A DNA stretch of 34,407 nt from Parcubacteria group bacterium GW2011_GWB1_40_14 (GTDB lineage Bacteria; Patescibacteriota; Minisyncoccia; Terrybacterales; GWB1-40-14), in NCBI GenBank assembly GCA_000996085.1, contig LBYG01000005.1, forward strand, positions 1-34,407. The letters run 5' to 3'. Within the stretch, counting starts at the first letter, position 1. Every line of letters begins with the position of its first letter. Below the pieces are notes generated by a model. That model searched no databases. It was not told the origin of the DNA and saw only the letters and a list, made by a program, of their open reading frames with translations. Of this stretch, positions 1,206 through 21,987 are shown piece by piece. A program made the position numbers and the translations under genes.

Positions 1206-1335
1206 CCAGGTAGTAGAAATTCGACTATTTATTGGTAATTAACGAATTTCCGATTAAAAATAAACACTAGAAACTTTATATCTTAGTCGGATAGATTTGT
1301 TCGCTTATGCGAACAGTCGAATTTTCACTACCCGG
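1206..1335 (-). promoter_or_regulatory. Structured leader element, copy 1
   Basis: Read on the minus strand, the arms at 1335-1316 (CCGGGTAGTGAAAATTCGAC) and 1225-1206 (GTCGAATTTCTACTACCTGG) pair over 20 bp with one A-C mismatch. The TGTTCGC/GCGAACA hairpin with loop ATAA (1298-1315) sits directly against the 5' arm, and 72 nt of AT-rich interior follows. The A-to-G change in the 5' arm keeps a G-U pair. The element is bounded by TATG on both sides, and the 3' ATG is the start of the gene at 1204. A short reading frame starts at the 5' ATG (20 codons). Confidence 0.8.
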
Positions 1336-1489
1336 CATATATTAAAAAGTTATTACTTAGATTCTATATAATAGTACACTAAATATTATAAGATACAACA
1401 CGATACTCGGCTTTCTAAATTGCCTATTTCATATTTTTGTCTGCGGCACTAAAAACGCTCCTTTCATATAAAATTATAGCGCCATGGAA

Positions 1490-1517
1490 TTGACATAACA
1501 TTTAATAGGTTTATAAT
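1490..1517 (+). promoter_or_regulatory. Consensus sigma-70 type promoter for the gene at 1572
   Basis: TTGACA (1490-1495), a 16-bp spacer and TATAAT (1512-1517) match the vegetative consensus exactly in both boxes. The predicted start of transcription is about 1524, leaving a leader of roughly 48 nt. Confidence 0.8.
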
Positions 1518-1571
1518 ATAAGCACTGTACATTATGTACTGAATCTTGAAGTGAGGTTGAAATAGTAAAAA

Positions 1572-1886
1572 ATGATAAATCCTTCTGTCGACCAAGGAAC
1601 GGAAACCGCCAAGTTGCGCGATGCTGTTGAAAAGCTCTGGCTGGTTCCTGAAGCCCAGGAACACGACCAGACGCTGGAAGAACTTCGCGGAATGGCTACG
1701 GTGAAGCTGTTCTACAGGCTTCGCCAAAAAGGCTTCTCGAAAGAAGAGAGCAGCAACCTCGTAGCTCACATTATAGGAATCCAGCTGGATCCGGGCGGAC
1801 ACCGCATCAACTGGACCCTTAAGGAAGTGAACACGTTTCTATTCCTAAGGTTCCTCCATAGCGAACGGCACGTCGCTGTTGCGTAA
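1572..1886 (+). CDS. Conserved-looking hypothetical protein, 104 aa
   Basis: This is a soluble 104-residue protein with no signal or membrane segment, rich in charged helices (LRDAVEKLWLVPEAQEHDQ, VKLFYRLRQKGFSKEESSN). I do not recognise the family. It is flanked by a perfect-consensus promoter upstream and a strong bidirectional terminator downstream, so it is a monocistronic unit. Its base composition is clearly richer in GC than its neighbours, a feature shared with the plus-strand genes at 12921 and 14577. A GAGGT Shine-Dalgarno-like sequence lies about 15 bases before the ATG, longer than ideal, so the exact start is not certain. A regulatory role would be guesswork. Confidence 0.7.
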   Translation: MINPSVDQGTETAKLRDAVEKLWLVPEAQEHDQTLEELRGMATVKLFYRLRQKGFSKEESSNLVAHIIGIQLDPGGHRINWTLKEVNTFLFLRFLHSERHVAVA

Positions 1887-1892
1887 AAAAGA

Positions 1893-1925
1893 GACCCTTT
1901 AAGCTTTTGCTTAAAGGGTCTTTCC
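1893..1925. terminator. Bidirectional terminator between convergent genes
   Basis: The perfect 12-bp stem GACCCTTTAAGC / GCTTAAAGGGTC has a TTTT loop. It is flanked by A-rich sequence on the left and TTTCCTTGTTTT on the right. It can serve the plus-strand gene at 1572 and the minus-strand gene at 1931. Confidence 0.85.
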
Positions 1926-1930
1926 TTGTT

Positions 1931-2212
1931 TTATTTAAGTATTTCTACCGCCGCAACTCCTCCATTTTGTTGAAGTTTAATTAAAAAGATATCTAATATT
2001 TTTCCTCTAATACCGATAACTGTTCCTCGTGCGCTATCTTCTGCCGGCTGTTGTGTCGGCAACTCTTGTTTAAATCCATATTCCTCAAGCGCCGAAAGAA
2101 CGGGTATCTCGTTTTCTACGCTGCACCAAATAATGACCTGCCTTTCCTCTGCAGGCAAATCCGATGTGGCAGAAAAAACTGCTGCGCTATTGGTTTTAGG
2201 ATTCTTAGACAA
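1931..2212 (-). CDS. Hypothetical protein, 93 aa
   Basis: The start is TTG at 2212, supported by GGAG 10 bases upstream on the minus strand (AGAGGAGAAGATAAAAATTG). The protein has a Ser/Ala-rich N-terminus (residues 1-20), then a compact alpha/beta-looking part (RQVIIWCSVENEIPVLSALEEYGF), an acidic linker and a hydrophobic C-terminal half (TVIGIRGKILDIFLIKLQQ). There is no membrane helix or known motif that I can recognise. It is convergent with the 1572 gene and shares its terminator. Function unknown. Confidence 0.6.
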   Translation of the reverse strand: MSKNPKTNSAAVFSATSDLPAEERQVIIWCSVENEIPVLSALEEYGFKQELPTQQPAEDSARGTVIGIRGKILDIFLIKLQQNGGVAAVEILK

Positions 2213-2392
2213 TTTTTATCTTCTCCTCTCGCCAGGGTTTCTGCGTAAAATCATTTCATCTAGCATATCCTTTATACGCCTACCTCCGTATATTTTTAAA
2301 GAAACGCCGAATAATACGATACAAAATTATAATTTATTTGTCAAATTTCATGCGCTTCTATATATTGCGCCTGCTTATTAAAACGAAGTTAT

Positions 2393-2421
2393 AAATAAAA
2401 AGAACGGAAATAATTCCGTTC
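2393..2421 (-). terminator. Terminator of the zincin gene at 2449
   Basis: On the minus strand the stem GAACGGAA-TTAT-TTCCGTTC is followed by TTTTTATTT. It lies 28 bases after the stop of the protease gene. Confidence 0.75.
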
Positions 2422-2448
2422 ATAATTAAAAATTACTTTAATTATATA

Positions 2449-3318
2449 TTATCGACATTTTCCCGAAAGTCCCAAAAGGCCGTCTCTCGTTAATTCGGCA
2501 ACCACATTAGAATGCGCCCATAAATTCGAACCAAAAGATCTATAAGACATAAAGTCGCCATAGGGGTCGTGCGCCGTATCTTCATTATTCCAATTTTTTT
2601 CATCCAGCTGTCCAAGAATATTATGGCCTAATTCATGTGTTATCACTACTATGCTGAATTCATGATTACGAATAAGTGACTCTCCTGCCAAATAAAGCGT
2701 ATCGCCGGGAGCATCTCCTAAACCCGCAGCCTCATTTTTAGAAGCAAGCCAGCCTAAATTTTTTAATACTAAGCCGTACCTGAAAATACCGCATCGATCC
2801 GGAGAGAAAAATTCCTCGTCTTCATGCATGGCCATCATAGTTAACTGCGGATACATTTCCTGAGATTCATCCTCAAAGACCTGTCCGCCCCCGAAATAGA
2901 ATTCTAAAGATGCATCATCTATATGAAGACGAATTCCTTTTGTGCCGTCGGGATTGCAAAAGTCCAGATTGGCGTAAAAATCAACCGCGCCTTTCTTAAC
3001 TTCAGCGGGAACCAAATAACCCTCCTGGGTATCAAGTTCAAGGTATAAATCGGCATGATACGGATCGGGCCAGTTTAAGCTATTTGTACCGAATATTTTC
3101 GCATCGTGCGCTATTTCTACAACATCTTTAATCCCATCTCTATCTGAATCATCTTTTAGTCTATCGACAGATTGGCTGGAAACATCCGGTTCAAAAACTG
3201 CGCATTTATCAGTATCAAGGTTTAACTTATTATACGCAAATAAAAACGCTAACGTAGAAAAATAAATAACAACAAAGAGCAATGTCAGCAGTCGCCTGAT
3301 TCTCATCGTTGAAAGCAC
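2449..3318 (-). CDS. Membrane-anchored or secreted zinc metalloprotease (zincin fold)
   Basis: This 289-residue protein has an N-terminal signal-anchor (RRLLTLLFVVIYFSTLAFLFAY, residues about 8-29). An acidic stretch DSDRDGIKD (about 57-65) resembles a calcium-binding or thrombospondin-type-3 motif. The C-terminal domain contains HELGHNILGQLD followed 20 residues later by FMSY. HExxH gives the zinc ligands and catalytic Glu, and FMSY resembles a Met-turn, so a metzincin-like active site is likely. The spacing to the following Gly is one residue longer than classic HExxHxxGxxH/D. The GTG start at 3318 is preceded by AAAGG seven bases upstream, which favours it over the ATG four codons later. 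Substrate unknown. Confidence 0.8.
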   Translation of the reverse strand: MLSTMRIRRLLTLLFVVIYFSTLAFLFAYNKLNLDTDKCAVFEPDVSSQSVDRLKDDSDRDGIKDVVEIAHDAKIFGTNSLNWPDPYHADLYLELDTQEGYLVPAEVKKGAVDFYANLDFCNPDGTKGIRLHIDDASLEFYFGGGQVFEDESQEMYPQLTMMAMHEDEEFFSPDRCGIFRYGLVLKNLGWLASKNEAAGLGDAPGDTLYLAGESLIRNHEFSIVVITHELGHNILGQLDEKNWNNEDTAHDPYGDFMSYRSFGSNLWAHSNVVAELTRDGLLGLSGKCR

Positions 3319-3393
3319 CGGTAACCTTTGTCAAACAGCTTGCTTTCCTTATATCAAACCGTCCCTCATATGCCAATAGCGGTAAACGAATAA

Positions 3394-3422
3394 AAATTGC
3401 TTCGCATAAATTGAAGCAATTT
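3394..3422 (-). terminator. Hairpin after the PurD-like gene, possible terminator
   Basis: On the minus strand the 10-bp stem AAATTGCTTC / GAAGCAATTT is followed by TTATTC. It lies about 95 bases past the stop at 3518. The intervening stretch also holds a short stem AGTCG-TTTG-CGACT (3482-3495) and the GC palindrome CCGCCAGAGGCGG (3451-3463), so the exact termination point is uncertain. Confidence 0.5.
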
Positions 3423-3517
3423 ATAACAATTTTAATTTTTACTCTTTTATTTTTCCGCCAGAGGCGGATCCGCTTTTAATAAAGTCGCAAACGACTCTCG
3501 AATCAGTGGCGGATGAT

Positions 3518-4876
3518 TTAATATAGATATCCCCACGTTTGTAACTTATCACTTTCAGTCCCCCATCCCACACCAATATCAGTCCGATAAAACATGTTGG
3601 GTATCATTATATTTTGAATCCTTGAATAAACGAGCTTGCGCGCTTCTTCAACTGTTGTGCCTGAGCCGGTAACCACGAGCACGCATCCTGAAATCCCGGC
3701 AATGCGCCAAACACCATCGTCAGAAACTTTAATATCCTCAATATGAACCCCCTCCATATTTTGTTTTTTGAATAAAACCGCAACGTCCTTATAACTTTTA
3801 ACTGTTTCCGCGCTCGCCTCTTTATAAAAATAAGATGGCACCAAGATTCTAACTCCTATCTGAAAACCCTTTTTGGTTTTCAGCTCAAAACTCTCTCCGT
3901 GCGCCAAGCGATAAAGCCATTCACCTGCGGGCATAGTGATTCCCTCTTCCTGTATTTGAATAGTTGGATATCCAAAACGGGAAGTAAATTCCAACGGATA
4001 TATGCCCCTTCCATTAACTATACAATTCAAGTCTATATAACCGATATATTTTGATTCACGAAGTGCGGGCAACATTTTTTCAAGCGTGGAACGGAATAAA
4101 GTATTTGTTGCGCTCCAAAACATAAGCGTTCCCATTTCACCTGAAAAAGGTCCTATGTCGCCGGGGAAAACGCGTTTATGTTCAAAATTAACGTTTATCG
4201 GATAAATAAAGTCGTTACCGTTAAAAAAAGCGCCCACAGCAACCTCAACTCCGTTTATATATTTTTGCAGTTGAAATACCGGGGCCTTTTTCTGCCACGC
4301 AACTTTATTTTTCTCAAAAACTTCCAACAAATCTTTTCCATCTTCTTCCTCACCAAGGAATAACAATCCTTTCCCGGCTGATGGCGTATTGCCGCTTGGT
4401 TTAAATACATAACGATCGGGATTGTTACGGATAAATTCAAGTGCCTGATTATAATCTGTAAAATTCCAGCTGGGCAAAATACTTATATTATATTTTTTAA
4501 GTTCTGCCTGCCCAAATTCCCTATCTATCTCAAGTTTATCGGTATAAACACTGCCACCCACCACAAACTTGCCTTTTGCGCGTAATTTTTCGGCAGCCCC
4601 GCCAAAACCAACATCATCAAAAACAATAACGTCGGCCCAATCCTGATAGGCCTCCCAGGAATCAACTCGTTCAACAAAACCGGTATAAACATCTTCATCG
4701 CTTTTAGCTTTAATATAAGCTTTTACTTCGTGACCGTCTTTTTTGACTTGCCATGCCAAATCGCCGCTTAAACTTTCAAGCGACACAAATAAAAATTTCT
4801 TCGCGCTACCGGCAGGCGCCAAAACAACTTCTGAATTCTCTGCACTATTTTGTGATGAGTTCCCGTTATTTGCCAT
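3518..4876 (-). CDS. purD: PurD-like ATP-grasp ligase (phosphoribosylamine-glycine ligase family)
   Basis: This 452-residue ATP-grasp protein would carry out or resemble glycinamide ribonucleotide synthesis (phosphoribosylamine + glycine + ATP) in purine biosynthesis. Visible parts are an N-terminal Rossmann-like domain (KKFLFVSLESLSGDLAWQ), an ATP-grasp core with YVFKPSGNTPSAGKGLLFLG, a metal/ATP-site region (EVAVGAFFNG, IDLNCIVNGRGIYPLEFTSR) and a C-terminal GARS-like domain (ISGCVLVVTGSGTTVEEARK). An upstream in-frame start at 4921 is unlikely because the extra 15 codons would lie inside structured element copy 2; the ATG at 4876, one base past the stem, is preferred. CPR bacteria often lack full purine pathways, so a different amino-group substrate is possible. 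Confidence 0.8.
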   Translation of the reverse strand: MANNGNSSQNSAENSEVVLAPAGSAKKFLFVSLESLSGDLAWQVKKDGHEVKAYIKAKSDEDVYTGFVERVDSWEAYQDWADVIVFDDVGFGGAAEKLRAKGKFVVGGSVYTDKLEIDREFGQAELKKYNISILPSWNFTDYNQALEFIRNNPDRYVFKPSGNTPSAGKGLLFLGEEEDGKDLLEVFEKNKVAWQKKAPVFQLQKYINGVEVAVGAFFNGNDFIYPINVNFEHKRVFPGDIGPFSGEMGTLMFWSATNTLFRSTLEKMLPALRESKYIGYIDLNCIVNGRGIYPLEFTSRFGYPTIQIQEEGITMPAGEWLYRLAHGESFELKTKKGFQIGVRILVPSYFYKEASAETVKSYKDVAVLFKKQNMEGVHIEDIKVSDDGVWRIAGISGCVLVVTGSGTTVEEARKLVYSRIQNIMIPNMFYRTDIGVGWGTESDKLQTWGYLY

Positions 4877-4877
4877 A

Positions 4878-5005
4878 CCAAGTAGTAGAAATTCGACATT
4901 TAACTGCCCAATTCCTACCAATTTTATTAAAAAATATATTAGCTTTTAACCGGATGATGAAACGCTTTGTTCGCTCTAGCGAACAGTCAAATTTTCACTA
5001 CCTGG
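4878..5005 (-). promoter_or_regulatory. Structured leader element, copy 2
   Basis: On the minus strand the arms at 5005-4986 (CCAGGTAGTGAAAATTTGAC) and 4897-4878 (GTCGAATTTCTACTACTTGG) pair, with TGTTCGC-TAGA-GCGAACA (4968-4985) against the 5' arm and a 70-nt interior. Two C-to-U changes relative to other copies, one per arm, each leave a G-U pair. The 5' ATG is separated by only three bases from the stop codon of the upstream gene (5012). The 3' ATG starts the PurD-like gene. The frame from the 5' ATG stops after 10 codons. Confidence 0.8.
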
Positions 5006-5011
5006 CATAAA

Positions 5012-5938
5012 TTAAGGTTGCAAAATATCTTCACTTCTGCCGTTTATAGATATAACTACATTTTTAATAGTAGAAAACTGTTTAAGTGTTTGTTCTATCT
5101 CCGCTCTTATAACTGTAACGCGGCAGGATCCACCAACATTTACACCCAACATTTCATCAAAATCAGCAAAAGCCGTGCCATTATCTATCTTTAAACTTAT
5201 AAGCTTTGTTCCTTGGTTAATAGAAGTAAAAAAACCGTTATCTCCTTCATTTATAGTCGGACCCGCAAGCAGTTGTTTAAGGGCGGCTTTTGCAACTCCT
5301 GTGGTTTTTGGTATGCGACGATCTTGCGGATAAACCTTATCACAATTAAGAGATCCGGGATCCATCTTTCTGTTACCGAAAAAAACTTTGACATTGGTTG
5401 TCTCAACTTCAGCAAAAACAACCGGAACGATAACCTTATCTAACTCTTCACCGTCTTTGGGAGAATACCAAAATACCTCAACTGTTCCGCTTATTCCCTT
5501 TGGTTTCGGATACATCGTAGATATTTCAAAGGCGCCAAACTGTCCCATATCCGGACTAAGTGCTGTTGTGAAGTTTTCTACCAATAAAGAACCGTCTGCA
5601 TCTTTCAGGCGATAATTAACCGTACTTTCAAAAACACGCGCTTGGCCCTTAACGATCAGAGGCAAACCAACCTCATCATTGGCTTTTGGTTCACTTATTG
5701 TAATATTAACTTCTTTCGGCGGTGAAGCGGGTTGAGTTTCCGGCGAAGGCACCTGTTCTTCATTCGCAGTAGGAAGTACTGAAGATTGCGATTGATCGTC
5801 CTGTTTATAATAAAAAAATACTACGGCCAACAAAAGCAAAACCGCTGTTATTGAAAAAAATAATGTTATTTTATTATGTTTCACCCCGTTAAAAGTCTGG
5901 ATTATAGCTTTTATGCGTTGATAAAAGCGCTTCTCCAA
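5012..5938 (-). CDS. Membrane-anchored Gmad2 + GerMN domain protein
   Basis: This 308-residue protein has one N-terminal membrane helix (ITLFFSITAVLLLLAVVFFYY, about 24-44) and then a Pro/Ser/Gln-rich linker. A Gmad2 immunoglobulin-like domain follows (about 75-175; ITISEPKANDEVGLPLIVKGQARVFE). The C-terminal GerMN domain (about 180-305) contains VKVFFGNRK, a TTGVAKAALKQLLAGPT stretch and GTAFADFDEML. These domains are known from spore germination proteins but are widespread in non-sporulating CPR bacteria as surface proteins of unknown role. The TTG at 5938 gives the longest frame; a GTG at 5884 just before the membrane helix is an alternative start. The stop is three bases before element copy 2, so it probably shares a transcript with the PurD-like gene. 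Confidence 0.8.
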   Translation of the reverse strand: MEKRFYQRIKAIIQTFNGVKHNKITLFFSITAVLLLLAVVFFYYKQDDQSQSSVLPTANEEQVPSPETQPASPPKEVNITISEPKANDEVGLPLIVKGQARVFESTVNYRLKDADGSLLVENFTTALSPDMGQFGAFEISTMYPKPKGISGTVEVFWYSPKDGEELDKVIVPVVFAEVETTNVKVFFGNRKMDPGSLNCDKVYPQDRRIPKTTGVAKAALKQLLAGPTINEGDNGFFTSINQGTKLISLKIDNGTAFADFDEMLGVNVGGSCRVTVIRAEIEQTLKQFSTIKNVVISINGRSEDILQP

Positions 5939-5967
5939 ACTTTTGATTATTTCCCCGATATTGCATG

Positions 5968-5992
5968 CACAAAATTTAAATTAAATTTTGTG
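5968..5992. other. AT-rich perfect palindrome
   Basis: CACAAAATTTAA / TTAAATTTTGTG forms a 12-bp inverted repeat with almost no loop. It sits between the MGMT gene and the GerMN gene, close to the GerMN gene's 5' end on the minus strand. Function unknown; it could be a cruciform or an operator. Confidence 0.5.
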
Positions 5993-6031
5993 CGGAAGAC
6001 TTCTAACGGGGTTTCATTTTTAAAAAAGTTA

Positions 6032-6061
6032 TCCGCCATAGGCGGACCCGCCTTAGGCGGG
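6032..6061 (-). terminator. Double GC hairpin at the end of the MGMT gene
   Basis: Two adjacent palindromes, CCCGCC-TTA-GGCGGG (6047-6061) and TCCGCC-ATA-GGCGGA (6032-6046), overlap the stop codon region of the MGMT gene. On the minus strand they are followed by TAACTTTTTT, which makes the second one a good terminator. The CCGCC-N3-GGCGG palindrome also occurs at 3451-3463. Confidence 0.65.
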
Positions 6062-6316
6062 AAACTTTACGCCTTCAGCCAAAAGAAGGCGGAGCTTTTT
6101 GGCGGTATCACGATTATATCCTCCGGGTTTTCCGTCTGACCTTATTACCCTGTGGCAAGGAATATCCGAATCGTAATTTTTCTTTAAAATATTGCCGACC
6201 GCACGCCAAGCAGTAGGACGTCCGGCCAAATACGCAACTTGTTTATACGTACAAACTTGTCCTTTTGGTATGCAAGCTACAACATTATAAACTTTTGTCT
6301 GAAAATCTTGGTTCAT
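6053..6316 (-). CDS. Stand-alone MGMT/Ogt catalytic domain (alkylguanine-DNA alkyltransferase-like)
   Basis: This 87-residue protein consists only of the C-terminal DNA-binding/active-site domain of O6-methylguanine-DNA methyltransferases. It has the winged-helix part (GQVCTYKQVAYLAGRPTAWRAVGN) and the active-site motif IPCHRVI with its cysteine intact, then the GGYNRDTAKKLRLL helix. Alkyltransferase-like (ATL) proteins usually carry Trp at the Cys position, so this one could still accept an alkyl group, although it lacks the N-terminal domain of full-length enzymes. The start ATG overlaps the stop of the upstream SpoU gene (ATGA), so the two are translationally coupled. Its role is DNA alkylation repair or damage recognition. 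Confidence 0.88.
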   Translation of the reverse strand: MNQDFQTKVYNVVACIPKGQVCTYKQVAYLAGRPTAWRAVGNILKKNYDSDIPCHRVIRSDGKPGGYNRDTAKKLRLLLAEGVKFPA

Positions 6317-6807: not shown

Positions 6808-6825
6808 GGATTCAATTTAACATTT

Positions 6826-6942
6826 CACCCTGAGCGGTTCGACCGTCCCGAGCTCACCGCCGAGGGGCTCAATGCCGAAGGACTCACCATAACCGGTTCG
6901 GCTGAACTCACCGTCGAAGACCTGAACTGGTCGACTGGGTCA
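6826..6942. repeat. Degenerate GC-rich repeat tract (GGTGAG...TCGAAC words)
   Basis: On the minus strand the word GGTGAG or TTGAG recurs about every 15-20 bases, alternating with CTTCGGC, CAGCCGAACC or GGTCGAAC. Composition is far more GC-rich than flanking DNA. Both strands are open in some frames, but the translations are simple repeats (ELTAEGLNAEGLTITG), so I do not call a gene. It lies between the FKBP and SpoU genes. Similar GTGAG/TCGAAC tracts are familiar from other environmental bacterial genomes. Confidence 0.55.
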
Positions 6943-7455
6943 TTCAACATTCAATAATTCAACCTCAAATATCAATGTTGAGTTGGCTGGTATCGCACCG
7001 CCGCCGGCTACTCTGTCGCCATAACCTAATTCTGCCGGTATGGTTAATTTCCTTTTACCGCCTTCTTTCATGCCTGGAATACCTTGTTCCCAACCTTGAA
7101 TTACCGAACCCGTACCAATAGTAAATGAAAATGGCTGGTTTCGGTCATAGGAACTATCAAATTTTGTTCCATCCGTGAGCGTGCCTACATAATTCACAGA
7201 AACCGTATCTCCGGCTTTGGCTTCGGCTCCCGTACCTACCACCAAATCTTCTGTCTTAAATTCTTCATTCGCTGCCGGGCTAACATGCTCCATATTCATA
7301 TCTTCTGGTTGTTCGCCTGATTGTTGTTGCTCCATATTTGTATTTTTATCTTTTAAAAATGAATTAACAAAATATAATCCCAACGACATAATTATACCTA
7401 TTACAACCAGGCCTATAATGAAGTTTAACGTATTTATTTTTTGGATCTGAGTCAT
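6940..7455 (-). CDS. Membrane-anchored FKBP-type peptidyl-prolyl isomerase
   Basis: This 171-residue protein has an N-terminal membrane anchor (FIIGLVVIGIIMSLGLYFV, about 12-30) and a Gln/Met-rich acidic linker. A complete C-terminal FKBP domain follows (about 68-171), with VNYVGTLTDGTKFDSSYDR, FTIGTGSVIQGWEQGIPGM, the LTIPAELGYGD segment and GAIPANSTLIFEVELL. The aromatic and hydrophobic active-site residues (Tyr, Phe, Asp, Trp, Tyr) are present, so it should catalyse prolyl isomerisation. The domain topology places it outside the membrane as a foldase. The start ATG at 7455 is one base past element copy 3. Confidence 0.92.
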   Translation of the reverse strand: MTQIQKINTLNFIIGLVVIGIIMSLGLYFVNSFLKDKNTNMEQQQSGEQPEDMNMEHVSPAANEEFKTEDLVVGTGAEAKAGDTVSVNYVGTLTDGTKFDSSYDRNQPFSFTIGTGSVIQGWEQGIPGMKEGGKRKLTIPAELGYGDRVAGGGAIPANSTLIFEVELLNVE

Positions 7456-7456
7456 A

Positions 7457-7590
7457 CCAGGTAGTAGAAATTCGACTTTTCAACGATGAAGATTATCGAA
7501 TTTCTGGTTAAAAATAGTTTAATTTTAATTAATATTTCTAGCCAGTGTAGCTTGTTCGCTTACGCGAACAGTCGAATTTTCACTACCTGG
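7457..7590 (-). promoter_or_regulatory. Structured leader element, copy 3
   Basis: The minus-strand arms at 7590-7571 (CCAGGTAGTGAAAATTCGAC) and 7476-7457 (GTCGAATTTCTACTACCTGG) match the most common form. The hairpin TGTTCGC-GTAA-GCGAACA (GNRA loop, 7553-7570) abuts the 5' arm, and the interior is 76 nt. TATG is present on both sides. The 3' ATG starts the FKBP gene. The frame from the 5' ATG is 22 codons. Confidence 0.8.
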
Positions 7591-7638
7591 CATATATTTA
7601 AAGATTAAAATTTAATATATTAAAATTCTATCACCAAG

Positions 7639-7875: not shown

Positions 7876-7881
7876 ACAAAC

Positions 7882-7910
7882 AAAAAATCCGCGTATATTC
7901 GCGGATTTTT
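7882..7910 (-). terminator. Terminator of the cupredoxin gene
   Basis: The stem ATCCGCG / CGCGGAT with a 6-base loop has A-runs on one side and T-runs on the other, so it can work on both strands. On the minus strand it follows the cupredoxin stop by 14 bases. Confidence 0.75.
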
Positions 7911-7923: not shown

Positions 7924-8469
7924 TTATTGAACTATGACTTTCCCTTTCATCCACGGATGTGGTTTACATAAATAATTGAATTCCCCGGAGGTATTAAATG
8001 TATGAGAAAATGATTCTCCGTTACCCAATAGAACGCTATCTAATTCTATTCCGGATTCGCTGGTAACCGTATGCCCGGCAGAATCATTATTTGTCCAAAC
8101 AACTGTTGTTCCCGGACTAATATGTAATTCTGCGGGCACATAAGCAAAATTAGATATGGAAACATTTACAGTTACCGTAGCCGGAGGCGTTGGCGGAGTT
8201 GGCGGTGACGTTGTTGTAGTAGGCGGAGGCGTAACAGTTGTTGGAGGGGGCGGTGGCGTAGGAGTTACGGAATCATCCATCATCTCCATATCAGAATCAG
8301 ACATATCGTCCATGTCTGTGGGCGTATCTTCATTTTGGTTTACCGAAGACGGATTTTGATCCGAAAAAGTATCGGGTTGTTTAACTGACGAAGCCCAAAT
8401 TATACCGACAACAACAAGCACAGCAGTAGCCGCAATTCCCACTAACATTAAAAGTTTATTTTTAGGCAT
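7924..8469 (-). CDS. Membrane-anchored type 1 copper protein (cupredoxin/plastocyanin-like)
   Basis: This 181-residue protein has an N-terminal membrane helix (LLMLVGIAATAVLVVVGIIW, about 6-25), an acidic Met-rich stretch (DMDDMSDSDMEMMDD, about 53-67) and a long Pro/Thr linker (about 69-99). A cupredoxin domain follows, with the copper ligand His in AGHTV and the C-terminal C-x-x-x-H-x-x-M type site YLCKPHPWMKG (Cys, His, Met). It should bind copper for electron transfer or copper handling outside the membrane. The Met/Asp stretch could also bind copper ions (inference). The start ATG is one base past the divergent element copy 4, and a terminator follows. Confidence 0.9.
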   Translation of the reverse strand: MPKNKLLMLVGIAATAVLVVVGIIWASSVKQPDTFSDQNPSSVNQNEDTPTDMDDMSDSDMEMMDDSVTPTPPPPPTTVTPPPTTTTSPPTPPTPPATVTVNVSISNFAYVPAELHISPGTTVVWTNNDSAGHTVTSESGIELDSVLLGNGESFSHTFNTSGEFNYLCKPHPWMKGKVIVQ

Positions 8470-8470
8470 A

Positions 8471-8612
8471 CCCAGTATATCAACTTCGACAAAAATAAAT
8501 TATTAAAATAGTAATTTAATTTCTCGAATTGATCAGATTTAACCCAGTAAATAAACATGAACATCTTCCGGGTTGTCGCTCAAGCGACAACAGTCAAAGT
8601 TGTATTTCTGGG
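8471..8612 (-). promoter_or_regulatory. Structured leader element, copy 4 (divergent arms)
   Basis: The architecture matches the other copies but the arm sequences differ. On the minus strand CCCAGAAATACAACTTTGAC (8612-8593) pairs with GTCGAAGTTGATATACTGGG (8490-8471) apart from a small internal loop. The inner hairpin is longer (GTTGTCGC-TTGA-GCGACAAC, 8572-8591) and the interior is 81 nt. Arm changes occur on both sides and keep pairing at the outer CCCAG/CTGGG and inner CAACTT/GAAGTTG blocks. TATG is present on both sides; the 3' ATG starts the cupredoxin gene. Confidence 0.75.
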
Positions 8613-11250: not shown

Positions 11251-11880
11251 TCACAAAGTCTTCTTTTTTGAGTCCAGACTGGCCCAAAGATATCGACACG
11301 CATATGTACGGTAAGGACGCCACCGCTCTGAAAGTTGAAGTGCTTTTTTGTGTTCCGGATGCTTTTTTAAACGATATGCTTTTTGTATCGCATTTTTAAG
11401 TCCCAGATCACCAAAAGAAAAAACATCTTCGCGTCCCATGGCAAACATAAGGAACATTTCTGCGGTCCATTGACCTATGCCCCTAACCTGCACCAATTGG
11501 CTTATTATTTCTTCATCAGACATTTTATTGAATTGCTTAAAATAAAGTTTTTTCTTTTCAACGGCTTCAGCCAAATTGCGTACATATGTTGCTTTCTGAA
11601 AAGACATGCCCACAGCGCGCATTCTGGCTTCTCTCACGCGTAATACCTGTTTTGGTCCGGGAAAATTTTTGGAAGGAAAAAGATTACGGAAACGTTTTAT
11701 TATCGTATCGGCTGCTTTCCCCGATAACTGTTGGCTTATGATTGATTCTACGAGAGCACGAAAATAATCTTTTTCGGGTTTAAAATTTGATAGTTCAACG
11801 CGGGAAATTATGCCGGCAAGTACCGGATCCGAATTGCTAAGATATTCTTCTGCTGTTTGTTGTTTTCTGTTTTTTGTCAT
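11251..11880 (-). CDS. AlkA-like DNA-3-methyladenine glycosylase (HhH-GPD superfamily)
   Basis: This 209-residue base-excision repair enzyme has an N-terminal helical part with VESIISQQLSGKAADTIIKR (about 48-67). The helix-hairpin-helix follows as LVQVRGIGQWTAEMFLMF (about 130-147), and the catalytic loop EDVFSFGDLGL has the conserved Asp that activates base removal. There are no Cys ligands for an Fe-S cluster, so it belongs to the AlkA/MAG side rather than EndoIII. It excises alkylated purines. The start ATG at 11880 is one base past element copy 5. Its gene is followed by DUF2207 in the same operon. Confidence 0.9.
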   Translation of the reverse strand: MTKNRKQQTAEEYLSNSDPVLAGIISRVELSNFKPEKDYFRALVESIISQQLSGKAADTIIKRFRNLFPSKNFPGPKQVLRVREARMRAVGMSFQKATYVRNLAEAVEKKKLYFKQFNKMSDEEIISQLVQVRGIGQWTAEMFLMFAMGREDVFSFGDLGLKNAIQKAYRLKKHPEHKKALQLSERWRPYRTYACRYLWASLDSKKKTL

Positions 11881-11881: not shown

Positions 11882-12022
11882 CCAGGTAGTAGAAATTCGA
11901 CTAAATAAATCTAGTTAGATTTTAACTTTTACCTAAACTTTTCTTTGGTTCTAATCAACCGTTACCAAATAATTTTATCGCGTCGTTCCGCTTTGCGGAA
12001 CAGTCGAATTTTCACTACCTGG
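11882..12022 (-). promoter_or_regulatory. Structured leader element, copy 5
   Basis: The arms at 12022-12003 and 11901-11882 are identical to copy 3. The inner hairpin has changed on both sides, to GTTCCGC-AAA-GCGGAAC (11985-12001), a compensatory change compared with GTTCGC/GCGAAC. The 83-nt interior holds its own small hairpins (AAATCT-AACT-AGATTT and TTTGGT/ACCAAA). The element lies after the terminator of the upstream gene, so its own promoter must be near 12030-12060. The 3' ATG starts the glycosylase gene. Confidence 0.8.
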
Positions 12023-17153: not shown

Positions 17154-17161
17154 ATTTAATG

Positions 17162-17277
17162 AAACCGTCCAGCTCTAATTTTTATTAAGAATTCTGGATG
17201 ATTTAAAAGCGTATTGATAAAACAATACGCTTATTTTTATATAATAATTTACTAAAATTAGGGCTGGACGGTTTTTT
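17162..17277 (+). terminator. Nested double hairpin after the M1 aminopeptidase
   Basis: An outer stem pairs 17162-17182 (AAACCGTCCAGC then CTAATTTT) with 17254-17274 (AAAATTAG then GCTGGACGGTTT) over about 20 bp with one mismatch. It encloses a perfect 10-bp hairpin, AAGCGTATTG-ATAAAA-CAATACGCTT (17207-17232). Each is followed by T-rich sequence (ATTTTTAT and TTTTTTCG), so both could terminate the aminopeptidase transcript. Confidence 0.75.
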
Positions 17278-17339
17278 CGTGCATTCATTGTGTGTTAATC
17301 TATATATAAACGAATATCCGTTTATTATTCTTATAAAAT

Positions 17340-17798
17340 ATGAGCATTCCTAAACCAATATTATCAGTTTTTACCAAAACCTTTCTGGTACGCTACTTTC
17401 TGTTCATTGTGCCGGTAACAATAATGATATTAATTTTGACCATTAGCTACGAAAGGATCATGCAAAAAAGCATCGCAGCTTTACCGCTTGAATATTCGCA
17501 ACAACTTACAAATGTGATCCGTGGGATACTCATGATCCACGCTTATGCCATTATCACGATCCTGTTTTTCTTTTTCTTTGTTGTGATCGGAACCCTAGTA
17601 AGTATCTGGTGGACATTTAGACCGACCCTTAAACTTTTGAAGGCTATGGATAACGTGGCAAGGGGTGACTTTTCCGTACGCTTACCTGAAGATTCAAAAG
17701 ATGAAATAGGACGCATTTTCAAACGTTTCAATGCAATGACCCAAGGACTTGAAGAAGCTGCAGTCAAAGGTTTTATGACCATTGCCTTGAAACCATAG
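17340..17798 (+). CDS. Orphan membrane HAMP-domain protein
   Basis: This 152-residue protein has two transmembrane helices (about 18-38, RYFLFIVPVTIMILILTIS, and about 68-92, YAIITILFFFFFVVIGTLVSIWW), a short extracytoplasmic loop, and a C-terminal HAMP domain (about 93-142; RPTLKLLKAMDNVARGDFSV, then DEIGRIFKRFNAMTQGLEE). HAMP domains normally relay signals to a kinase, cyclase or methyl-accepting domain, but the protein ends about ten residues after it and is followed by a terminator. It may be an adaptor that dimerises with other sensors, or a truncated sensor. No partner is adjacent. No Shine-Dalgarno sequence is visible before the ATG. Confidence 0.85.
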   Translation: MSIPKPILSVFTKTFLVRYFLFIVPVTIMILILTISYERIMQKSIAALPLEYSQQLTNVIRGILMIHAYAIITILFFFFFVVIGTLVSIWWTFRPTLKLLKAMDNVARGDFSVRLPEDSKDEIGRIFKRFNAMTQGLEEAAVKGFMTIALKP

Positions 17799-17821
17799 AA
17801 AAAATTATCGCGCGCAATATT

Positions 17822-17855
17822 AAAAATCCCCGCACTTTTTGTGCGGGGTTTTCTT
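17822..17855. terminator. Terminator between convergent HAMP and SdpI genes
   Basis: The stem CCCCGCAC / GTGCGGGG with a TTTTT loop is followed by TTTTCTT on the plus strand and by A/T-rich sequence on the minus strand. It can end both converging transcripts. Confidence 0.8.
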
Positions 17856-18504
17856 ATTGCAAAAATCTTTCTTTCCGAAAAAGAATATATGAATAAATTA
17901 TTAACCATACCAAAGATACCGCTAACGGAACGATCGCGACAACAAAAGCAAAATCCGCGGGAACCAATATTCCAAACATTGCGATGATACCGGAGACCTT
18001 AAATATCAATCCGCCTATTTTATGGGTTTTCTCCCAAACCATGTCTGAGGATATTGTCCAAGGCGTACGTATGCCAAAGAACCAATTGCGTTTTGTGCGG
18101 GGCAATATTGTGCCCATTATAAAGAACATCATCCCGAGCATAGGTGCGGCTGCGCGCGCAAAATTAAAACGTATACCCAAATTCCAGGCTAAAGATAATG
18201 CGTTAAAAAACATAAAAGTAAACACCATCAAGACAATAGATAAGTTGTATTCTTTACGGAATTTTTTAAAATTTTCACGGAATGGGTCAATATATGGCAC
18301 TATAACCAAAAACAAAAATACTATCGTGGCTATTGCCGGAAATAAAAACAACCCGATAAATTTATTTCCGTAACCGTCAACTTGTCCGGCGCCGTTCCAA
18401 TGAACGGCTATTTCCGAAGGCAGCATAGGATATACATAGATACTTGCGATAAAAGAAACGCCTATCAACACAAGACTTAAAATATATGCTATTGCTGTAG
18501 ACAT
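17854..18504 (-). CDS. SdpI family / DUF1648 membrane protein
   Basis: This 216-residue integral membrane protein has about six hydrophobic helices. The N-terminal DUF1648 motif is YPMLPSEIAVHWNGAGQVDGYG (about 26-47), written here in its recognisable parts PSEIAVHWN and GQVDGYG. The SdpI signature PRTKRNWFFGIRTPWT followed by VWEKTHKIGG lies at about 133-165. In Bacillus, SdpI gives immunity to the SdpC toxin and senses it; many homologues in other phyla have no Sdp toxin and no known role, and none is encoded here. It starts five bases after the NUDIX stop, so the two form an operon. Confidence 0.9.
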   Translation of the reverse strand: MSTAIAYILSLVLIGVSFIASIYVYPMLPSEIAVHWNGAGQVDGYGNKFIGLFLFPAIATIVFLFLVIVPYIDPFRENFKKFRKEYNLSIVLMVFTFMFFNALSLAWNLGIRFNFARAAAPMLGMMFFIMGTILPRTKRNWFFGIRTPWTISSDMVWEKTHKIGGLIFKVSGIIAMFGILVPADFAFVVAIVPLAVSLVWLIIYSYILFRKERFLQ

Positions 18505-18509
18505 AAAAA

Positions 18510-18968
18510 TTATATTTCTTTAATGGAATAATTAAGAATTGTATTATTATCTTTAAAATTAAACTCTCCTTCAAAATTCTTACCGGCCAAAAGCAGAGGC
18601 ATCCAATAGCGGTCATCTGGCCACATCGTATCATACGGAATATTATTTTTGTCGAACCATTGCGGTCTCATCTCTTCTGTTTCCAGGGGTTCACCTTCAA
18701 ATTTTTCAGAACTGAAAATATGCACTTCCTGCAATACATCCGGCTCTTCTTGCGAATGAAATGTTATTGTGCCGCGTTTATCTAACCCGTTTGCTGATAT
18801 ACCGCACTCTTCCTGAAGTTCACGCAAAGCCGCGCTTTCAACGCTTTCGCCTTGTCCAAGTTTTCCGCCAAAGCCATTCCATCGTCCCGCACCAAAACCC
18901 CGCTTTTTCATCCCCAAAAGCACGCGGTCGCCGTCATGAATTATGCATAAAGTAAGTATTTGTTTCAC
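18510..18968 (-). CDS. NUDIX hydrolase similar to MTH1 (8-oxo-dGTP diphosphatase type)
   Basis: This protein of about 152 residues has a complete Nudix box GKLGQGESVESAALRELQEE followed by CGI (the GX5EX7REUXEEXGU pattern). Around it are blocks strongly like animal MTH1 as I recall it: GFGAGRWNGFGGK before the box, and EEMRPQWFD, MWPDDRYWMPLLL and DNNTILNY after it. The WPDD block forms the base-recognition site in MTH1, so removal of oxidised purine nucleotides is a reasonable prediction. The longest frame starts at 19016, but the GTG at 18968 matches the usual MTH1 start (KQILTLCII) and has GGGGAA upstream. First gene of an operon with SdpI. Confidence 0.88.
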   Translation of the reverse strand: MKQILTLCIIHDGDRVLLGMKKRGFGAGRWNGFGGKLGQGESVESAALRELQEECGISANGLDKRGTITFHSQEEPDVLQEVHIFSSEKFEGEPLETEEMRPQWFDKNNIPYDTMWPDDRYWMPLLLAGKNFEGEFNFKDNNTILNYSIKEI

Positions 18969-19027
18969 AATAATATTATTCCCCAATTTAAGATTTTCGC
19001 AAATAGACAAGAACATTTCTTGCCCAA

Positions 19028-19057
19028 AACAAAAACCCCCCTTATAGGGGGGCTTTT
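19028..19057 (-). terminator. Terminator of the cold-shock gene
   Basis: On the minus strand GCCCCCC-TATAA-GGGGGG is followed by TTTTTG. It lies 14 bases after the cold-shock protein stop. Confidence 0.85.
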
Positions 19058-19070
19058 GGACTAAAAAAGA

Positions 19071-19268
19071 TTAGGAGCGCTGTACGTTTACAGCGTTCGG
19101 ACCTTTTGGAGAATTCTCAATTTCAAAAGTTACAGCGTCCCCTTCGCGAAGTTCGTTGTATTGAACTCCTACCAAAGAATTGCTGTGGAAAAAGACATCT
19201 TTTTCCTGCCCTTCTACAGTGATGAAGCCGAAACCTTTGTCAGTAAGTTTTTTGATTGTACCATTCAT
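19071..19268 (-). CDS. Cold-shock domain protein (CspA family)
   Basis: This 65-residue single cold-shock domain has the RNP1 motif KGFGFITV (residues 11-18) and the RNP2-like DVFFHSNSL (about 24-32), followed by LREGDAVTFEIE and the C-terminal GPNAVNVQ. It binds single-stranded RNA/DNA as an RNA chaperone. Length and layout are those of the family. It is monocistronic with a strong terminator and a long structured leader (19269 to about 19400), which is typical of cold-inducible csp genes, where the leader controls translation with temperature. Confidence 0.95.
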   Translation of the reverse strand: MNGTIKKLTDKGFGFITVEGQEKDVFFHSNSLVGVQYNELREGDAVTFEIENSPKGPNAVNVQRS

Positions 19269-19353
19269 GGTTTAAACTATTTTTAACTTGAATAAAATGC
19301 AAATGTAAGTATTTTTAAACTCGACACACTTTTTAAAACAAACTTCTTTGCTT

Positions 19354-19434
19354 ACCGTATACTTTTGGTACACGGTGCTACGATACGTTAGTACGCAACT
19401 TGAGAAGAATAACACACGACAACCTAAACGTCAA
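19354..19434 (-). promoter_or_regulatory. Promoter and structured 5' leader of the cold-shock gene
   Basis: On the minus strand TTGACG (19434-19429), a 16-bp spacer and TTATTC (19412-19407) form a plausible promoter, giving a leader of about 130 nt. The leader contains the hairpin ACCGTGTAC-CAAAA-GTATACGGT (19376-19354; 9 bp with one G-U). A role as a temperature-responsive leader is inference from cspA. Confidence 0.5.
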
Positions 19435-19464
19435 TACTAATCCGGATAGGTTTCCGCAGATATT

Positions 19465-19755
19465 TTAATCGGCGCTTTTAAACCGCATACTAGTTTCGTA
19501 ATCTGGAAAATATTGGTGCAGGGTCGGAAGGACAAATTGACCAAAAATAGATTCTTTGGGTTCGCGCGAAAGTAAATATTCAAAAGAATTTTTTATTAAT
19601 TCTTCAGGAGTTATTTTTCCCTGCGTGAGTTTCTTATAATAATCTTCCGCCACAGTAACTGAATGCTTGGTCTCGCCGATATCATCATGGACAGTTACCT
19701 TAAACGTCCATCCATATGGCGTAATTGTCTTATTATCTATAATTATCTCGATCAT
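19465..19755 (-). CDS. Hypothetical protein, 96 aa
   Basis: This soluble 96-residue protein starts with an amphipathic beta pattern (MIEIIIDNKTITPYGWTFKVTVHDD), then helices (VAEDYYKKLTQGKITPEELIKNSFEYLLSRE) and a C-terminal PTLHQYFPDYE. Beta strands followed by helices, and the ITPEELIKNSFEYL segment, suggest a small conserved domain, but I cannot name the family. The ATG has no obvious Shine-Dalgarno sequence. It lies between the csp leader and the divergent thioesterase gene and appears to be transcribed alone. Confidence 0.7.
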   Translation of the reverse strand: MIEIIIDNKTITPYGWTFKVTVHDDIGETKHSVTVAEDYYKKLTQGKITPEELIKNSFEYLLSREPKESIFGQFVLPTLHQYFPDYETSMRFKSAD

Positions 19756-19926
19756 ATTTAAAAATAATCTATATTCCTATATTTATATTTTAGCGCTTCT
19801 TATGTTTTTGTTAAGTTCCCAACCATTTTTCATATAGAATATTCCCTTAAGCATTGCGAACTGTTCTCTTGACACATTATATCAATTAGCGAGAATCAAG
19901 GTAACAGCTTTTTGAAAGGAACGGCG

Positions 19927-20406
19927 ATGACAAAGCCAAGGGCTTTCCAAGACTACTTTCCTCGCATGACATGTTTCGGGTGCGGTCCAAACAACCGTTC
20001 CGGACTTAAAATAAAAAGTTTTTGGACAGAAGACGGCTTAAATGTTATCTGTTCCTGGAAACCTAAAATAACTCATTCCTCGGGTATGCCAAATGTACTT
20101 CAAGGCGGCATCATTGCCACACTTATTGATTGCCATTCTATTTGGACAGCGATTGCCTATGATTATCGAGATGAAAACCGTTCCTTCGGCACTGAACCTA
20201 TGCCTGGATATGTAACCGGAACCTTTAATGAAATAAGACTTATGCGTCCGACCCCATTGGATGCAAAAATTGTTTTATGCGCGCGCGTTATAAACAAACT
20301 TAGGAAAAAAGCAATAATACATTGCGAACTATTTGCAGATGGGGTGCTATGCGCAAAAGGAGAAATTACCGCCATACGCCTTGAAGAAAGCCGCTATATA
20401 CGCTGA
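19927..20406 (+). CDS. Hotdog-fold thioesterase-like protein
   Basis: This 159-residue protein of the PaaI/hotdog superfamily would hydrolyse an acyl-CoA or similar thioester. The N-terminal CFGCGPNNRSGLKIKSFW is a recognisable lead-in of a thioesterase subfamily. The hotdog helix region is GMPNVLQGGIIATLIDCHSI (Gln-Gly-Gly and Asp positions fit the catalytic helix), followed by strands TGTFNEIRLMRPTPLD and KAIIHCELFADG. AAAGGA six bases before the ATG at 19927 decides against the in-frame TTG at 19912. TTGACA at 19869-19874 is a probable -35 box. Monocistronic, with a terminator after it. Substrate unknown. Confidence 0.85.
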   Translation: MTKPRAFQDYFPRMTCFGCGPNNRSGLKIKSFWTEDGLNVICSWKPKITHSSGMPNVLQGGIIATLIDCHSIWTAIAYDYRDENRSFGTEPMPGYVTGTFNEIRLMRPTPLDAKIVLCARVINKLRKKAIIHCELFADGVLCAKGEITAIRLEESRYIR

Positions 20407-20420
20407 TAAGTATACAAATT

Positions 20421-20450
20421 ACCGCTGGAAAATTCAGCGGTCTTTATTTT
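20421..20450 (+). terminator. Terminator of the thioesterase gene
   Basis: The stem ACCGCTG-GAAAATT-CAGCGGT is followed by CTTTATTTT, 14 bases after the stop. Confidence 0.75.
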
Positions 20451-20466
20451 AATATTTTATAAAATA

Positions 20467-20493
20467 TTAAAAACCGCATGATAATTCATGCGG
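20467..20493 (-). terminator. Terminator of the M16 peptidase gene
   Basis: On the minus strand CCGCATG-AATTAT-CATGCGG is followed by TTTTTAATATTTT, nine bases after the stop. Confidence 0.8.
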
Positions 20494-20502
20494 CTAAATA
20501 CT

Positions 20503-21792
20503 TTATGCAATAAGAGTTGTATGGAGAATATCTTGTATCGTCTCAACACTGCCGCCATAGGGGCCGACAATTGAAACCTTCCATCCGCCCGGAAGAAACA
20601 ACTTCTGCGCAATGCGCGTTACATCTTTTCGCGATACATTATCAGCATCGTGTATAGCATCAGTCGGTGTTACAGCTTTCCCGTAGGAAAGCTCTGAACC
20701 CACTAACCAGCCCAAAATTGTAGACACGTTGTCTGAAGACATCGCTAAATTTCCTGCACGGAAACTTTTTGCGCATTGCAGTTCATTGGCAGAAGGCGGC
20801 TCATCCATGAGTCTTCGGATCTCTAAAGCAATCGCCTGTATAGCTTCTTCGGTCTTTGTCGGAGAAACTCCTGCGCTACATACAAAAGCTCCAAAGTCAT
20901 GGCCGTTTCCGTAATCTGAAGTAACGCTGTAAGCAAGACCCTTGAGGGTTCTGACATTCTGAAACAGACGCGAGCTCATTCCGCTACCCAAAATGCCGTC
21001 AAGAACAATTGCGCTAGCCCGGTCATTTGAGTGAAAGGCAGGAGCTGAAACACCAAGCGTAATGATAGCTTGCGCAAAATCTTTCTGCTTAATAACAATT
21101 TCCGGATTGGCTGATGAAGAAATCGGCTCATCAGGAAAACCATAATAAGAACTTGTGCGCGGCAAACCGGAAAAATATTTTTCCGCAAGCGAATATGCAG
21201 ACTTAACATTTAGGTCGCCGCTGAAGGCAAGAACTGCTTCCCGCGCATTATACATTTCTTGACGAAAACGCACGAAATCCGGACGGGAAAACTTTTCCAG
21301 ATTTTCACGCGGTCCTACGATCGGGCGGCCAAGAGATGTGTCGCCATACATTAATTTATGCAATTCTTCCCAAGCGATGCTTGAAGGATCATCGGCACGT
21401 CTTGCCAATTCCTGTAAAACAGCTCCGCGTTCAGCATCAATGTCTTCTGTACGCAATTGCGCATTAAACAACATATCACTCAAAACATCCATCGCAACTT
21501 CAAATTTATTTACCGGTATGCCGATTACAAAATATACTTTATCGTAACCGGTGAAAGCGTTAAAATTCCCTCCAACGCCTTCGATCGCTCTTGATATGAT
21601 CTCTTGCGTGGGATAACGGATACCGCCACGGAAAAACATATGCTCAAGGAAATGCGCTATGCCGTTTGTCTCTGCGTTTTCACGACGAGCACCAGCACGC
21701 AAACCAAGGACTACATGGGAACTTAAAATGCCTTTCTGAGTCACAGCAAATGTACGAAGTCCATTCGAAAGGACCTTGCGCTGGATATCCAA
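20503..21792 (-). CDS. M16 family zinc peptidase (processing-peptidase-like)
   Basis: This protein has about 429 residues in two M16 halves. The inverted zinc motif HFLEH (HxxEH) sits near residue 47 from this start, with the distal Glu ligand region AERGAVLQELA about 80 residues later. The C-terminal half has the R/Y substrate pair region (GLAYSVTSDYG). Such single-chain bacterial M16 proteins degrade or process peptides and are related to mitochondrial processing peptidase. The TTG at 21792 has AAGGAG six bases upstream; the TTG at 21810 with AAGGA nine bases upstream is an alternative. There is no signal peptide. Element copy 6 lies just upstream but, unlike the others, does not end at this start codon. 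Confidence 0.9.
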   Translation of the reverse strand: MDIQRKVLSNGLRTFAVTQKGILSSHVVLGLRAGARRENAETNGIAHFLEHMFFRGGIRYPTQEIISRAIEGVGGNFNAFTGYDKVYFVIGIPVNKFEVAMDVLSDMLFNAQLRTEDIDAERGAVLQELARRADDPSSIAWEELHKLMYGDTSLGRPIVGPRENLEKFSRPDFVRFRQEMYNAREAVLAFSGDLNVKSAYSLAEKYFSGLPRTSSYYGFPDEPISSSANPEIVIKQKDFAQAIITLGVSAPAFHSNDRASAIVLDGILGSGMSSRLFQNVRTLKGLAYSVTSDYGNGHDFGAFVCSAGVSPTKTEEAIQAIALEIRRLMDEPPSANELQCAKSFRAGNLAMSSDNVSTILGWLVGSELSYGKAVTPTDAIHDADNVSRKDVTRIAQKLFLPGGWKVSIVGPYGGSVETIQDILHTTLIA

Positions 21793-21854
21793 AGCTAACT
21801 CCTTTTTCAAATAACGGTTTCCTTATTTAATACCATATTTCTAAATTTTTGCAA

Positions 21855-21987
21855 CCAGGTAGTAGAAATTCGACTATTAGATTAATAAATTTCTAGATTT
21901 ATTATATAAAGTATTTCTACTCATAACTAAATAAAAATATTCTTTATTGTTCCGCAACTGCAGAACGGTCGAATTTTCACTACCTGG
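21855..21987 (-). promoter_or_regulatory. Structured leader element, copy 6 (TTG-flanked)
   Basis: The minus-strand arms at 21987-21968 and 21874-21855 are identical to copy 3. The inner hairpin is GTTCTGC-AGTT-GCGGAAC (21949-21966) with one U-G pair, and the interior is 74 nt including AATAAAT/ATTTATT. In place of ATG the flanks are TTG on both sides. The element directly follows the ABC-F terminator and ends about 60 bases before the M16 peptidase start, which has its own Shine-Dalgarno sequence. A TTG-initiated frame of about 39 codons crosses the element. Confidence 0.8.

Follow-up and report, generated by a model that had tools for sequence, protein, structure and literature searches.

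Integron attC sites and the ends of IS200/IS605 elements have imperfect inverted ends, a conserved asymmetry and a free interior, IS200/IS605 make no target duplication, and the intervening sequences of 23S rRNA have complementary ends; MITEAba12 is reportedly a bacterial miniature inverted-repeat transposable element (MITE). Here we describe a family of short elements in a stretch of 34,407 nucleotides (contig LBYG01000005.1, positions 1 to 34,407 of the forward strand; hereafter the window) from Parcubacteria group bacterium GW2011_GWB1_40_14, a member of the candidate phyla radiation (CPR). The window holds six of them, 128-142 nt long and with complementary ends of 20 nt, which resemble attC sites and IS200/IS605 ends in that the inverted ends are imperfect, an asymmetry is conserved and the interior is free. 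Neither an integrase nor a Y1 transposase was seen between the ends, though no search was aimed at either. We consider it probable, at roughly 60%, that the elements are short copies of a mobile element, moved by a GIY-YIG nuclease of about 90 residues that longer copies with the same ends encode.

Bacterial MITEs are short, have complementary ends, make a short target duplication, occur in many copies and carry no gene (PMC10969869), and the present elements are like them in each of these respects. The terminal inverted repeats, the target-site duplication and the empty sites by which MITEs are recognised are all found here, and where a MITE shares its ends with a transposase-coding element, our short copies have theirs in common with GIY-YIG-coding elements, whose nuclease would be a putative transposase. 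They differ in that the presumed parent is an element with a GIY-YIG nuclease rather than a DDE transposase and in that they sit on start codons; neither 'start codon' nor 'GIY-YIG' appears as a term in the main text of the MITE review cited above. GIY-YIG homing endonucleases (PMC1564403) have the same catalytic domain (PF01541) and a likewise selfish setting, but they copy their sequence into a cognate allele, whereas dedicated ends are found here. A homing endonuclease gene, which would occupy a cognate allele without any duplication, was rejected as an explanation because the insertions lie at varied sites and are flanked by 4-nt duplications.

In CPR rRNA genes, GIY-YIG proteins occur in insertions that match no intron class, and many other insertions, mostly below 200 bp, have no open reading frame (ORF) (PMC11270868). 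The CPR hosts, the GIY-YIG domain and the short ORF-less forms are common to those insertions and ours, whereas that paper deals with rRNA genes and its main text does not contain the terms 'inverted repeat' or 'start codon'. One of our loci (L096:1447-1753) has a GIY-YIG gene between complementary ends of 17 nt and lies within a 23S rRNA gene, which suggests that the insertions, as that main text describes them, are the same kind of element. The paper also mentions 23S rRNA intervening sequences that are cut by RNase III; these resemble our elements in their ends, and insertions are tolerated there since the RNA is cut. Unlike them, ours sit mostly before protein genes at start codons, and cutting would here be putative. 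Judged by titles and the beginnings of abstracts, searches of open-access literature gave no recognisable account of GIY-YIG elements with inverted ends or of start-codon-targeting elements in the CPR.

The 20-nt arms of the window elements were recovered as 10 arm matches with at most 3 mismatches, compared with none in 100 shuffles. As the first-pass annotation of the window had claimed, all six elements lie on the minus strand, and five of them share CCAGGTAGTGAAAATTCGAC-type arms while one (8471-8612) has different arms. That annotation missed a 4-nt direct repeat outside the ends, which reads TATG/TATG in five of the six copies. A covariance model was built from 52 of 55 copies (alignment A1, leaving out the two shortest copies and one with a nuclease gene) found in the genome that holds the window (G000, 944,541 bases). 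In this genome the model gave 111 matches, many places being matched on both strands, which corresponds to at least 61 distinct places; this is a lower bound, as 150 of 831 first-look candidates were scored. Five further places and two truncated copies (locus L023) are not part of the 55-copy set.

An exact 4-nt flanking direct repeat is present in 45 of the 55 copies, reading TATG in 38 and TGTG, AATG, CTTG, AATA, TAAG, CATG and CACG in the other seven, and in two of the five further places (CGGA and TATG). Because its sequence varies, the repeat is not part of the element, and the identity of the flanks falls at the fifth base, indicating a length not beyond 4 nt. Further copies were also found in relatives: the sister species (G001) has 10 places with short elements, and a pattern scan of named genomes gave at least 80 loci. 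Among 83 pattern places in the named loci, four with poor arms were set aside; of the remaining 79, which have at least 17 of 20 arm pairs, 58 are flanked by exact 4-nt repeats. Duplications such as TTGA, CTTG and AAAA also occur. The matches listed come from many CPR lineages, including Yanofsky-, Portnoy-, Jorgensen-, Harrison-, Doudna-, Terry-, Lipton-, Sungi- and Moranbacteria, and the presence of short elements is patchy (at least 55 of 285 genomes).

Forty-seven of the 55 copies are followed by an ATG in sense, and 42 of these 47 open a frame of at least 60 codons. Among the exact-TATG copies such a frame is opened in 33 of 38 cases, against 129 of 344 TATG sites outside coding sequence that serve as start codons (p = 5e-10), the background being the fetched stretches around the elements with the elements cut out and with simple ORF calling. 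All 38 exact-TATG copies stand in sense, and CATA is found in front of none of the 55 copies. The notion that the elements close on the start codon holds for five of the six in the window; behind the copy at 21855-21987 comes TTGC, with the start of the M16 gene further on. Many different genes are interrupted, for instance rpmJ, rpmC, gyrB, serS, ftsA, mraZ and the genes for IMP dehydrogenase-like and MurG-like proteins, trigger factor, ribosomal protein S6, GreA, iPGM and PilM. With 27 of the 47 copies lying within 60 nt behind a reading frame on the same strand, it is probable that many of them are located in operons.

The starts of 34 interrupted G000 genes were compared with the sister species as one joined query, which allowed 29 orthologues to be compared. 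In 28 of these there is no arm-like string before the start; half of them, 14, align from their first residue and have an ATG there, while for the others the exact start in the sister species is uncertain. Nearly matching empty sites were seen at pgk and serS. The copy at the only occupied orthologue has an interior that is closer to another G000 copy (0.78 identical) than to the G000 copy at the same gene (0.57), as if the two had been inserted independently. Moreover, three loci of the named genomes have two tandem elements on one start codon, with TATG between them. The 4-nt duplications, the empty orthologous starts, the tandem insertions into the same ATG and the nuclease-bearing copies with the same ends show that the elements are insertions of a mobile family, and they leave unsupported the earlier opinion that conserved ends with free interiors speak against a mobile unit.

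One G000 copy of 306 nt (G000:C38:5221-5526) has the same ends and a TATG duplication, and encloses a gene for a GIY-YIG protein of 86 aa (PF01541, 59.3 bits; another match has 52.9 bits; cut-off 22.6). The arms of a second nuclease copy in this genome (L116) resemble those of the window element at 8471-8612. Across 14 nuclease sequences Y6, Y17, H31 and E51 are invariant and R27 nearly so; we take these five to be the catalytic positions of GIY-YIG. In the fetched loci, strong flanking inverted repeats (score cut-off 15) occur at 30 of 97 small GIY-YIG ORFs and at 10 of 511 control small ORFs, the two kinds being told apart by a hidden Markov model (HMM); in other classes of the phylum, L309 and L325 are over this cut-off. 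In the reverse direction, 383 genomes of the class were searched for arm-bounded matches of nuclease length (about 300 nt) with A-family arms. This gave 15 matches. In 10 of them, 18 or more of the 20 arm pairs are formed, and within this arm family and length range each of the 10 carries a GIY-YIG gene, which in one case contains an in-frame stop; two of these genes were missed by the motif and read by eye, and one of the two was also found by the HMM. The other five have poor arms, of the kind expected by chance, and a reversed control pattern gave 12 matches.

In all cases (5 of 5) in which the flanking ATG opens a gene of 60 codons or more, that gene and the nuclease gene point the same way, irrespective of how the nuclease gene is oriented to the arms. 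Four copies, three of them among the 10 (L342, L343 and L344) and the fourth L139, have a nuclease frame that reads on without a break from the target ATG upstream of it. The 10 genomes with an arm-matched nuclease include 8 with short elements, compared with 47 of the other 275 (Fisher, 4e-5; 1.7e-4 without G000).

The end-sequence family follows the nuclease lineage. In a tree of 26 nuclease domains, from which the arm-coded tail had been removed, four arm families sorted by eye need 3 changes, which is the minimum (shuffled mean 14.0; 0 of 200 shuffles as low), and families A, B and C are each found on one side of a branch (support 58/95, 90/98 and 100/99, respectively). Left out of the tree were L309, L096, L086, L152, L085, L109, L113, L114, L094, L325, L105 and L145, which fit no family, and L345, which has an in-frame stop; L144 (score 14.0) was added. 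Several families can occur in one host (A, B and C in genome G009; B, C and D in G004), hence the hosts do not explain the match between arms and nucleases.

The co-varying fold in the first-pass annotation is confirmed across the 52 aligned copies: 97.9% of the cells in the two helices of the model are paired, 13 of 26 pairs have changed on both sides (a level that none of 500 shuffles reached, although these shuffles ignore relatedness), and the inner hairpin of the short copies co-varies too. Besides the fixed step described below, the 18 positions of the terminal inverted repeats are all Watson-Crick in 38 of 52 G000 copies and in 62 of 79 copies of the named genomes; these 52 are the 55 without the window copy that has the other arms and without two copies whose 5' arm lacks one base. 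The A-C mismatch that had been called constant is indeed fixed but is properly a GA/CT step (53 of 55 copies in G000 and 79 of 79 elsewhere, together 132 of 134), which marks the left end from the right. The claim that changes leave G-U pairs only on the minus-strand RNA did not survive the larger sample: single-change exceptions are G.U in 11 and A.C in 6 cases in G000, 9 and 10 in the named genomes, and 20 and 16 in both sets together (p = 0.6). If the sense RNA were selected, G.U should be favoured over A.C, which the counts do not show, and a sense-RNA fold was therefore rejected as the selected feature. The strict pairing with no strand preference rather fits ends that are required to match each other in DNA. 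A conserved upstream reading frame from the first ATG was also rejected, since such frames are 6 to 53 codons long and differ from each other.

The interiors, said to be unrelated, are mostly so (mean pairwise identity 0.57, against 0.54 when shuffled), but nearest neighbours reach a median of 0.67 and a maximum of 0.86. Their divergence indicates that the copies descend from old lineages, even though the sites are younger than the split from the sister species. Repeated movement of each lineage would explain both the divergent interiors and the intact duplications.

That the GIY-YIG nuclease acts as the element's enzyme seems well supported from the sequences compared here. The nuclease, a lone GIY-YIG catalytic domain, may recognise its own pair of ends and cut a tATG target with a 4-nt stagger, where the element would enter; the copies of about 130 nt without a gene would be moved in trans. 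By landing on a start codon and duplicating it, the element could use the promoter and start signals of the gene, and the gene would keep an ATG directly behind. Translation at this downstream ATG would most likely proceed by re-initiation, or after an RNase III cut of the end stem that leaves a short leader. More tentatively, and with some doubt, the longer copies may represent the smallest known self-moving DNA transposons, of about 280-320 bp, with a GIY-YIG domain of about 90 aa as the only enzyme, nuclease-matched ends, landing on start codons with a borrowed promoter and ATG, and a duplicate ATG left for the gene; they and their gene-free derivatives would then have spread through the CPR class and into essential and rRNA genes. 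If the nuclease moves the element, a nuclease domain known from homing and repair would be a complete transposition enzyme in fewer than 100 residues; DNA transposition would gain a new class of enzyme, and one that is attractive as a small tool. The elements may also explain the GIY-YIG genes and the short insertions without an ORF that occur in the rRNA genes of CPR bacteria, as well as many of the small GIY-YIG genes in these genomes. The insertions on the starts of rpmJ, rpmC, gyrB, serS and ftsA raise the question of how translation begins after a stem of about 20 bp.

Several observations weigh against movement by the GIY-YIG nuclease and against a true start-codon target. Among the 79 copies of the named genomes, 45 are at sense starts, 8 at antisense starts and 26 elsewhere (two of the latter, L155 and L160, being tandem copies at a start), and because of the copies off the start codon and in antisense the start-codon preference may be partly due to selection. 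Selection that keeps the upstream tATG in place might likewise account for the intact duplications. As many as 67 of the 97 small GIY-YIG ORFs are without strong arms, and among the 30 loci over the cut-off, five (L113, L094, L325, L105 and L145) resemble common hairpins or repeats. Of the 10 arm-bounded copies, 7 have a nuclease frame that does not run on from the target ATG. Family D is not a clade, 15 of the 23 inner branches of the tree are open, and the arms were assigned by eye. No arm-matched nuclease copy was found in the sister species or in genome G020, both of which carry short elements; one GIY-YIG ORF of the sister species is cut by a contig end. Lastly, the inner GC-rich hairpin of the short copies was not seen in the nuclease copies read, and the short copies are therefore not plain internal deletions of them.

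Some of these points would suit ordinary MITEs moved by an unrelated transposase, with the GIY-YIG genes as passengers or as separate homing genes between the ends. The MITE-like ends, the 4-nt duplication, the two element-bearing genomes without a matching nuclease and the many small GIY-YIG ORFs without strong arms agree with such an origin, which we nevertheless regard as rather unlikely: within the arm family and length range searched, every well-paired element of nuclease length holds GIY-YIG, and the arm family tracks the nuclease lineage across hosts, with several such pairs in one host. A cis-acting RNA element through which the host regulates translation or mRNA stability for a large number of genes, as favoured by the first-pass annotation, would account for the conserved co-varying fold, for the sense orientation of the TATG-flanked copies and for both tATG copies being kept while the interiors are free. 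It appears very improbable in view of the direct duplications, among them TTGA, CTTG and AAAA, the empty orthologous starts, the tandem copies, the patchy presence among genomes and the lack of any excess of G.U over A.C. We obtained no evidence in favour of a general role in translation or RNA stability, which is possible as a side effect, and the strand test shows no preference for the sense RNA; the earlier interpretation is thus supported only in part. Its doubt about a metabolite riboswitch was justified, and this candidate was rejected because the downstream genes share no pathway and Rfam is silent.

Removal or by-passing of the insertion in RNA, either intron-like, by ribosome hopping between the AUGs or by an RNase III cut of the end stem, is compatible with a mobile element moved by its nuclease and not opposed to it. 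The same AUG stands at both ends of the stem, rpmJ, rpmC, gyrB, serS and ftsA carry the element, more than half of the copies before an ATG follow closely behind a same-strand ORF, and the GIY-YIG element L096 with its complementary ends sits in a 23S rRNA gene; these points speak for such a process, by which the interrupted genes would still work. We still find such removal distinctly unlikely, as the alignment contains no conserved catalytic core beyond the arms and the hairpin, the covariance models of group I and II introns match nothing in the window, and in the Rfam search of the window no family matches the element and a tRNA alone reaches its gathering score. Ribosome by-passing was rejected, the matching AUGs being its sole support. 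The preferred reading remains that of short copies of a mobile element with a GIY-YIG nuclease as the likely mover, and the positions of the window copies and of the genes behind them are collected in Table 1.

Table 1. Elements of the window and the genes that follow them
Feature	Positions	Strand	Remarks
Copy 1, 130 nt	1206..1335	-	TATG at 1336-1339 and 1202-1205; on ATG of ORF 563-1204
Copy 2, 128 nt	4878..5005	-	Flanked TATG/TATG; on ATG of GARS/PurD-like gene
Copy 3, 134 nt	7457..7590	-	Flanked TATG/TATG; on ATG of FKBP gene
Copy 4, 142 nt	8471..8612	-	Other arm family (CCCAGAAATACAAC..); flanked TATG/TATG; on ATG of cupredoxin gene
Copy 5, 141 nt	11882..12022	-	Flanked TATG/TATG; on ATG of HhH-GPD (AlkA-like) gene
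Copy 6, 133 nt	21855..21987	-	Flanks CTTG / TTGC, without exact duplication; upstream of M16 peptidase gene, off the start codon
Gene begun by second TATG of copy 1, 213 aa	563..1204	-	No match in Pfam search at 0.001
Gene begun by second TATG of copy 2, 452 aa	3518..4876	-	GARS_A, weakly GARS_C
Gene begun by second TATG of copy 3	6940..7455	-	FKBP_C
Gene begun by second TATG of copy 4	7924..8469	-	Copper-bind
Gene begun by second TATG of copy 5	11251..11880	-	HhH-GPD
M16 peptidase gene, downstream of copy 6	20503..21810	-	

The sequence TCTAACGGGG, which is the end sequence of B-family elements, has one exact occurrence in the window (6002-6011, plus strand); with one mismatch it was found twice, compared with 1.29 occurrences expected by chance. 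A C family of GIY-YIG elements with C-rich, CAC-type ends is represented by L091, L101, L124, L135 and L146, and L135 shows an apparent 7-nt duplication beside a tRNA-like sequence, as judged by eye. Records labelled Oscillospiraceae, Arenibacter and Tychonema have poor arms (11-13 pairs). Well-paired copies are present in L180 and L227, from records labelled Spirochaetia PowLak16_MAG37, which could reflect transfer or misplaced contigs. Carriage by phages was rejected: the short pattern has 0 matches in viral_contigs, and a longer and looser pattern has 44, which is about the chance estimate.

Some loci of the host genome and its relatives carry unusual copies. Two are very short (68 nt at L009:2057-2124 and 72 nt at L034, minus strand, 7040-7111), and both keep the two arms and the inner hairpin; the L009 copy has an exact TGTG duplication. 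In L023 (G000:C24:17300-23900), two copies at positions 3876 and 4549 have an identical 5' part of about 95 nt and are cut at the same point. Both run directly into PilO- and PilP-like frames, named by position and by eye, without the start that is present in the sister species, so these copies represent either real deletions or an assembly error. Near 5049-5068 of L022 there is a lone 3' arm directly behind a frame identified by eye as GlyA-like, and the stop codon of this frame overlaps with the arm; a 5' arm was sought just upstream of the GlyA-like gene and not found there. On the minus strand of L025 (359-1984), a frame of 541 aa matches MurG and then the start of glutamate-tRNA ligase, which may be a fusion or a frame error.

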